This document shows positions 2,019 through 29,265 of a stretch of 39,473 nt of DNA, one piece after another; within the stretch, counting starts at the first letter, position 1, and every line of letters begins with the position of its first letter. The translations under genes were made by a program, and so were the position numbers. The notes under the pieces were generated by a model, which made no database searches, was not told the DNA's origin, and saw only the letters and a list, made by a program, of their open reading frames with translations. This stretch comes from Tannerella sp. (lineage in GTDB: Bacteria > Bacteroidota > Bacteroidia > Bacteroidales > Tannerellaceae), in the NCBI GenBank assembly GCA_031267935.1, contig JAIRYD010000096.1:1-39473 (forward strand), written 5' to 3'.

Positions 2019-2126
2019 CTCACCCCTGCGTGAGAGCATCTCTCACGCAGGGGTGAGAGGACTTCTCACGCAGAGGTGAGAGCGTCTCTCACGCGGAGGT
2101 GAGAGCGCTTCTCACGCAGAGGTGAG
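2019..2126. repeat. Array of 16-bp imperfect palindromes at 23-bp period, first unit inverted
   Basis: CTCACCCCTGCGTGAG (2019-2034) is the exact reverse complement of CTCACGCAGGGGTGAG (2042-2057); further units at 2065-2080, 2088-2103 and 2111-2126, each separated by 7 nt. Confidence 0.9.
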
Positions 2127-2146: not shown

Positions 2147-2350
2147 ATGAACAAAGACAGAATAGAAGCGGATGCCGGTACAATATGCCATCTGCTTGCC
2201 TTTAACGGAGAACTGAGCGTTACGGACCTCCGGAAATATTCGGATATTCCGGCGACATTCCTTTTTCTCGCCCTCGGCTGGCTGTTGAGGGACGACAAAA
2301 TCCGCTTCATTGAAACGAAAGGCGCAGTGTATGTCGTGCTGCACGGCTGA
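2147..2350 (+). CDS. Small winged helix-turn-helix domain protein
   Basis: 67 aa: GTICHLLAFNGELSVTDLRKYSDIPATFLFLALGWLLRDDKIRFIETKGAVYVVL; resembles the PF10771-type Bacteroidales wHTH family. Confidence 0.75.
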   Translation: MNKDRIEADAGTICHLLAFNGELSVTDLRKYSDIPATFLFLALGWLLRDDKIRFIETKGAVYVVLHG

Positions 2351-18996: not shown

Positions 18997-19290
18997 TTCC
19001 CGGACGATTTAGGGACGCCCTTAAATGATTTAGGGAAGTCCCTGGACGGTTCAGGGAAGCCCTTAAATGATTTAAGGGAGTCCCTGAGCGATTCAGGGAA
19101 GCCCTTAAATAGTTTAAGGGCGCCCTTAAATGGTTTAAGGGAGCCCTTAAATGATTTAGGGACGCCCTTAAATGGTTCAAGGGAGCCCTTAAATGATTTA
19201 AGGGAGCCCTTAAATGATTTAGGGGAGCCCTTAAATGGTTTAAGGGAGCCCTTAAATGGTTCAAGGGAGTCCCGAAAAGGTTCGGGAATG
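18997..19290. repeat. Tandem array of 14 palindromic 21-bp units
   Basis: Consensus GCCCTTAAATGRTTTAAGGGA, strict 21-bp phase from 18997 to 19290; CCCTTAAA pairs with TTTAAGGG inside each unit. Confidence 0.95.
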
Positions 19291-28478: not shown

Positions 28479-28558
28479 CGGCTGTTCTCTCTTTGTGTGC
28501 TCCGTGCGCTCCGTGTTTGAATAAAAGTACCGGATTCATCGTTCATCGTTCATCGTTC
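28479..28558. repeat. Left arm of ~80-bp inverted repeat flanking tRNA-Gly
   Basis: Reverse complement matches 28927-29006 at about 77 of 80 positions by eye. Confidence 0.9.
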
Positions 28559-28613
28559 ACAGTTATATAATTCCCGCCCCGGAAGTCACGGAACAGCGAT
28601 TTGAACTGCAAAA

Positions 28614-28760: not shown

Positions 28761-28926
28761 ATTTGCGCCGGCAAAGATAGCATGTTTCCTGAAAACAAAA
28801 AAACTTTTTCGCAAAAAATTGTCCCGTTTCTTTTTTCGAGGTGTCATTTTTCATTGGAAATAAAGAAAAGACGGTTGTAATTTATTTTTTCTTTTGTTCA
28901 AACACGGAGCGCACGGAGAGAACGAT

Positions 28927-29006
28927 GAACGATGAACGATGAACGATGAATCCGATACTTTTATTCAAACACGGAGCGCACGGAGCGCACAAAGAGAGAA
29001 CGGCCG
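28927..29006. repeat. Right arm of ~80-bp inverted repeat, containing GAACGAT heptamers and TTCAAACACGGAGCGCACGGAG
   Basis: See left arm; a further direct copy of TTCAAACACGGAGCGCACGGAG lies at about 28897-28918. Confidence 0.9.
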
Positions 29007-29013
29007 GTTGAAG

Positions 29014-29265
29014 CTACACTCCGGAAGTTCCGGGCTACACTCCGAGAGTTTCGGGCTACACTCCGAGAGTTTCGGGCTACACTCCGGAAGTTTCGGGCTA
29101 CACTCCGAGAGTTTCGGGCTACACTCCGAGAGTTTCGGGCTACACTCCGGAAGCTTCGGGCTACACTCCGAGAGTTTCGGGCTACACTCCGGAAGCTTCG
29201 GAGTGCACTACAAAAACTTCGGAGTACGCTGCAAAAGCTTCGGAGGACACTGCGGACGTGGCGGC
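29014..29265. repeat. Tandem array of 12 units of 21 bp, consensus CTACACTCCGRRAGYTTCGGG
   Basis: Strict 21-bp phase, first nine units nearly identical, last three diverged; short dyads (e.g. CCGGAAGTTCCGG). Confidence 0.95.

Follow-up and report, generated by a model that had tools for sequence, protein, structure and literature searches.

In the window analyzed here, i.e., the whole 39,473-nt stretch of a contig of a Tannerella sp. assembly, an array of short palindromes is surrounded by genes encoding HU-DUF4469, AraC and DUF2582 proteins. The first of these, encoded on the forward strand at 1302–2006 (234 aa) and proposed as the cognate protein of the array, combines an HU DNA-binding domain (PF14848, 3.4e-29, 101.8 bits) with an Ig-like DUF4469 domain (PF14734, 4.6e-22, 78.3 bits), both over the Pfam cut-off; its solved relative 4fmr_A (E 5.8e-48) served as the structural reference, and the AlphaFold model, being poor (mean pLDDT 44), was left unused. 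The array (2018–2127, delimited by motif matches, TRF and the lag score) starts 12 bp from the HU stop codon, and approximately 20 bp separate its end from the next gene downstream, a DUF2582 winged-helix gene recognized by Pfam (2147–2350, forward strand). An earlier note on this DNA had already placed the array between an HU-like and a winged-helix gene, with which the Pfam domains agree, but had missed how central the HU neighbour is.

The array comprises five exact copies (0 mismatches) of the 16-bp palindromic unit CTCACGCRGRGGTGAG, set in 23-bp steps and separated by related 7-nt spacers: unit 1 (2019–2034) is inverted and matches on the reverse strand, while units 2 to 5 (2042–2057, 2065–2080, 2088–2103 and 2111–2126) match on the forward one. 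None of 100 shuffles reached five matches, even with three mismatches allowed, TRF calls a 23-bp array at 2030–2126, and the array scores 53 at lag 23, versus 8 for the best stretch elsewhere in the window. The exact matches and the TRF call bear out the five units, 23-bp period and flipped first unit of the earlier note; the perfect stem that it drew between 2019–2034 and 2042–2057 is real as well, but its 16 bp were an understatement, as folding as DNA pairs 2018–2036 with 2040–2058 into a 19-bp inverted repeat of inverted unit 1 and unit 2 (2018–2058) with a 3-nt loop. Folded as DNA, the array region reaches a z of -7.6. An intrinsic terminator was rejected as an identity for the array, which has no T-run or terminator call at or after it (the same note had rightly taken the missing poly-T tail to mean something more than an ordinary terminator), and some arrays have separate terminators before them. 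A CRISPR array, which is recognized by unique spacers of about the repeat length, does not fit 16-bp units with related 7-nt spacers; Rfam matches in the window comprise three tRNAs only, which leaves no known RNA family for the array; and a phage or defence link was rejected, as PADLOC returned no match and IMG/VR no tandem pair of the window motif.

Within its own genome, the window motif recurs in only one further 23-bp array, which follows a radical-SAM-like gene on contig C49 and has no HU gene nearby, and among the 61 genomes searched, only one other (G021) contains it, in the orthologous place behind an 85% identical HU gene. The motif search and the comparison of unit orientation in relatives, both suggested by the earlier note, thereby revealed an orthologous array with the first unit again inverted, and the array, present also at C49 and in G021, is not confined to a single strain, as that note had allowed it might be. 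Named relatives (Tannerella sp. and Prevotellaceae MAGs) point to a Bacteroidales group of the termite gut as the probable source of the window, the termite gut being suggested by the names of the isolates.

The 515 kb of the own genome that were sampled, including the window and C49 by design, contain three palindromic arrays of 23-bp period, of which one is the C49 satellite and the other two follow the sample's only two HU-DUF4469 genes, and the many other arrays of this genome have periods of 21, 42 or 63. Three genomes of other families yielded one 23-bp array in 400 kb, and 400 kb of a genome of the same genus (G030, one contig), in which no HU-DUF4469 match was found, yielded some 22-bp arrays and a single weak row of 23 bp. 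Arrays of the 23-bp class are confined to HU-DUF4469 genes and their satellites, whereas the 21/42-bp arrays are scattered next to unrelated housekeeping genes; the view of the earlier note that the array is a likely third member of one class with the two 21-bp arrays of the window was therefore abandoned, its period being 23 and its neighbour an HU gene. Membership among the 21-bp arrays of the own genome (period 21, 42 or 63, no linked gene family) was likewise rejected, and the 21-bp arrays of the window are a different, HU-independent class. One of these, GATTTAAGGGAGCCCTTAAAT at 19006–19277 with approximately 12 palindromic units, belongs to the genome-wide 21/42/63-bp class found beside unrelated genes, and another, GCTACACTCCGAGAGTTTCGG at 29013–29253, is located upstream of a gene for a tRNA synthetase of class II (D/K/N type). 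In addition, 7-bp GAACGAT/TTCATCG repeats and AACACGGAGCGCACGGAG segments occupy many intergenic regions, often adjoining 23-bp arrays (e.g., window 28535–28559 and 28920–28950, L014 7780–8020, L060 8472–8583), and G030 (L125–L144) carries dozens of tandem arrays with a 41–42-bp period in the 400 kb, no two of them alike in sequence.

The linkage of period and gene family was seen in an unbiased scan of lags from 12 to 40 bp downstream of HU-DUF4469 genes, where the best repeat lag was exactly 23 bp at 44 of the 46 loci of the genus, five of six further named MAG loci and six of 15 loci from the remainder of the order (55/67 overall). An independent second set gave a 23-bp array for 17 of 18 HU-DUF4469 genes, and the one gene lacking it is broken by an in-frame stop. 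The array sequence differs from gene to gene across the loci of the genus, and the period stays constant. Most of the homologues tested in other Bacteroidota, outside the order, are followed by 22-, 23- or 24-bp arrays, and none of the homologues outside the order has an upstream one; Parabacteroides distasonis TSDC17.2-1.1 has four genes with 23-bp arrays and one with a 24-bp array, the homologue on a Treponema saccharophilum plasmid is followed by a 23-bp array, and no clear array accompanies the homologue on two phage-labelled fecal contigs that lack annotation. Chance slippage in genomes rich in tandem arrays, for which the many 21/42-bp arrays of the own genome and the 41/42-bp arrays of G030 might speak, is scarcely credible as the origin of an exact 23-bp period kept beside one gene family at this many loci, array-poor genomes included, against a low background of 23-bp arrays. 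All of this comes from the analysis of sequences, most of them from metagenome-assembled genomes, which were sampled as stretches. As a separate observation, short HU_rel (TIGR01201) genes without DUF4469 often have 22-bp palindromic arrays behind or in front of the gene (L107, L108, L176, L086, L094, L166, L170, L178 and L190), a link that was tested less strictly and that is to be read against the higher 22-bp array background of G224.

Most arrays begin approximately 15 nt past the stop codon (median 15 nt) and may be transcribed, and by a longest-frame heuristic, the gene after the array shares the orientation of the HU gene in 37 of 49 loci, a mild bias that could at best weakly suggest control of a downstream operon. 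The position just past the stop codon and the strong hairpins would fit an array that acts as RNA, i.e., as a hairpin series with which the HU transcript closes and which terminates or stabilizes the message. However, poly-T tails are absent after 52 of 55 arrays, hairpin plus T-run terminators stand between gene and array at six loci, and mismatches show no G-U excess (61 GT versus 50 AC), which together make an RNA role unlikely; with compensatory changes being rare and satellites occurring away from HU genes, we consider this explanation very improbable.

The palindromy itself is pronounced, with the longest perfect arm averaging 5.9 bp versus 3.7 bp in shuffles (highest null set mean 4.2), a test that replaced a whole-unit circular dyad score, which the non-palindromic spacers dilute. 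Variation within arrays is 0.08 in the arms, versus 0.22 in the core and 0.21 in the spacer (p about 1e-5), arm changes are one-sided in 137 cases versus compensatory in nine, and the 27 units at six loci of one motif family (C16) keep GATTGCG/CGCAATC nearly unchanged, while core and spacer vary. These near-invariant arms and one-sided changes therefore favour operator-like recognition of the arm sequence over recognition of shape alone. That the protein reads only shape (cruciform or junction DNA), with palindromy and period kept and the sequence left free, would suit the unrelated motifs seen even between close paralogues, and HU proteins are indeed known for structure-specific binding; nonetheless, the arm conservation just described, within arrays and across the six loci, and the exact same motif being carried by satellites make this unlikely.

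The C16 motif is present in one of the 41 genomes of the genus, at its home array and five other sites, and is absent from the genomes with 51–69% identical homologues; both motifs that were tested are absent from relatives without a close HU orthologue. Its satellites have SusC-SusD, a GH8 gene, a GH9 gene and lipoprotein genes as neighbours, and a GH43-CBM6 gene precedes the C16 HU gene itself; as several of the satellite contigs end at the array, the C16 sites may be parts of one fragmented polysaccharide locus. In a genome of another family (G069), two HU motifs have one satellite each elsewhere (0 control matches), one of them upstream of a GH3 gene, and C225 carries a probable satellite of the C167 motif, for which the pattern search alone did not rise above control. 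The C200 satellite of G000 (L218 440–620) keeps the unit order and was apparently copied along with the 3'-terminal codons of the HU gene of C16, so that shared motifs partly reflect copying.

Private, gene-linked palindromes with low-copy satellites, at least one of which was copied with flanking HU sequence, are also what selfish, REPIN-like dispersed palindromes with the HU gene as a companion or helper would look like. REPIN/REP palindromes with RAYT are a known gene-linked palindrome system (PMC3116915, PMC3733652). The arrays described here share with it the lineage-private extragenic palindromes, linkage to one gene and dispersed copies, but differ in their strict tandem 23-bp order and few copies. 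No HUH/Y1 RAYT transposase domain is encoded by the flanking genes of the window array, and no GTAG/CGTC-type tag is found at an end of unit CTCACGCRGRGGTGAG; with no HUH/Y1 transposase at the locus, one to five satellites rather than tens, and units kept in strict 23-bp order, a selfish origin looks decidedly unlikely.

The arrays follow their proteins to some extent, as 16% of HU pairs with at least 60% identity share at least 16 of 23 unit matches, versus 0.1% in the null (Mantel p 0.0005), but unit similarity is lost quickly, and some same-genome paralogues that are 85–90% identical have unrelated arrays. Within the pairs L019/L109 and L116/L123, the HU domain hardly differs, and many of the substitutions are located in the C-terminal loop of DUF4469. 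As the motifs are unrelated despite near-identical HU domains (L019/L109), specificity is either determined by a few residues, which may belong to the DUF4469 loop, or only weakly dependent on sequence. Either the choice of sequence depends in part on this loop, or turnover is faster in the arrays than in the proteins. At another locus (L103 3766–4113), a single home array is built of blocks with different versions of the motif, TCTTCCGCATGTGTAAGAGATGA followed by TCTCACGCATAGGTGAGAGATGA, and thus captures motif change in progress.

The above is most simply read as a DNA-binding protein linked to tandem sites of its own. Judging by the gene linkage, the constant period and the conserved arms, we think that the HU-DUF4469 protein encoded immediately upstream probably has in the array its home platform of dyad-symmetric DNA sites. 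A protein dimer would bind each palindrome through its two 5–9-bp arms, and neighbouring dimers, one per 23 bp (approximately 2.2 helical turns), would jointly form a nucleoprotein complex, which at the home locus may control the HU gene itself or the next operon, and which satellites may place at further genes, including glycoside-hydrolase or Sus loci. Candidate roles of such a complex are autoregulation, control of the next operon and local chromatin. More tentatively, and with somewhat less than even chances in our estimate, these might be self-addressing nucleoid proteins, each paralogue having a private address array and satellites recruiting that paralogue, with the period set by the subfamily (23 bp for DUF4469, 22 bp for HU_rel), which would result in many orthogonal HU-based chromatin or regulatory domains.

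Among known systems, the iterons and Rep proteins of plasmids and Vibrio chromosome II seem similar in having tandem sites of approximately two helical turns beside the gene of the binding protein (binding being putative here), and in sequence being replicon-specific there and private here. Iteron sites, approximately 17–22 bp long, are bound by the neighbouring protein, as the tandem 23-bp sites may be. The differences are an HU-like protein instead of a winged-helix Rep, each unit being a palindrome, and chromosomal intergenic arrays with satellites and no replication function seen; none of the HU-DUF4469, AraC and DUF2582 neighbours of the window array is a replication initiator gene. ParB-parS and similar centromere arrays likewise consist of tandem palindromic sites beside the gene of a binding protein (again putatively so here), but the present system has no ParA/ParB, a motif private to each paralogue and up to 14 family matches per genome. 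The same protein superfamily reportedly underwent a lineage-specific expansion, the HU-HIG expansion of Bacteroidetes treated by Burroughs et al. in 2017, and we know of no linked fixed-period palindromic array in that account. The literature searched, with most subscription papers outside its reach, contained no description of HU-DUF4469-linked 23-bp arrays. That nearly all genes of the family in related bacteria have an array of almost the same spacing and a sequence of their own suggests an undescribed protein-plus-address system.

HU proteins are textbook non-specific DNA benders, and a phylum-wide HU branch with private tandem palindrome arrays would mean that there are sequence-addressed HU proteins. 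It would also assign a role to a Pfam domain of unknown function and help to account for the large HU expansions of Bacteroidota. The fast change of the motif at a constant period amounts to a natural experiment in protein–site co-evolution, and the reading predicts directly which DNA each paralogue binds, which is testable in Parabacteroides distasonis.
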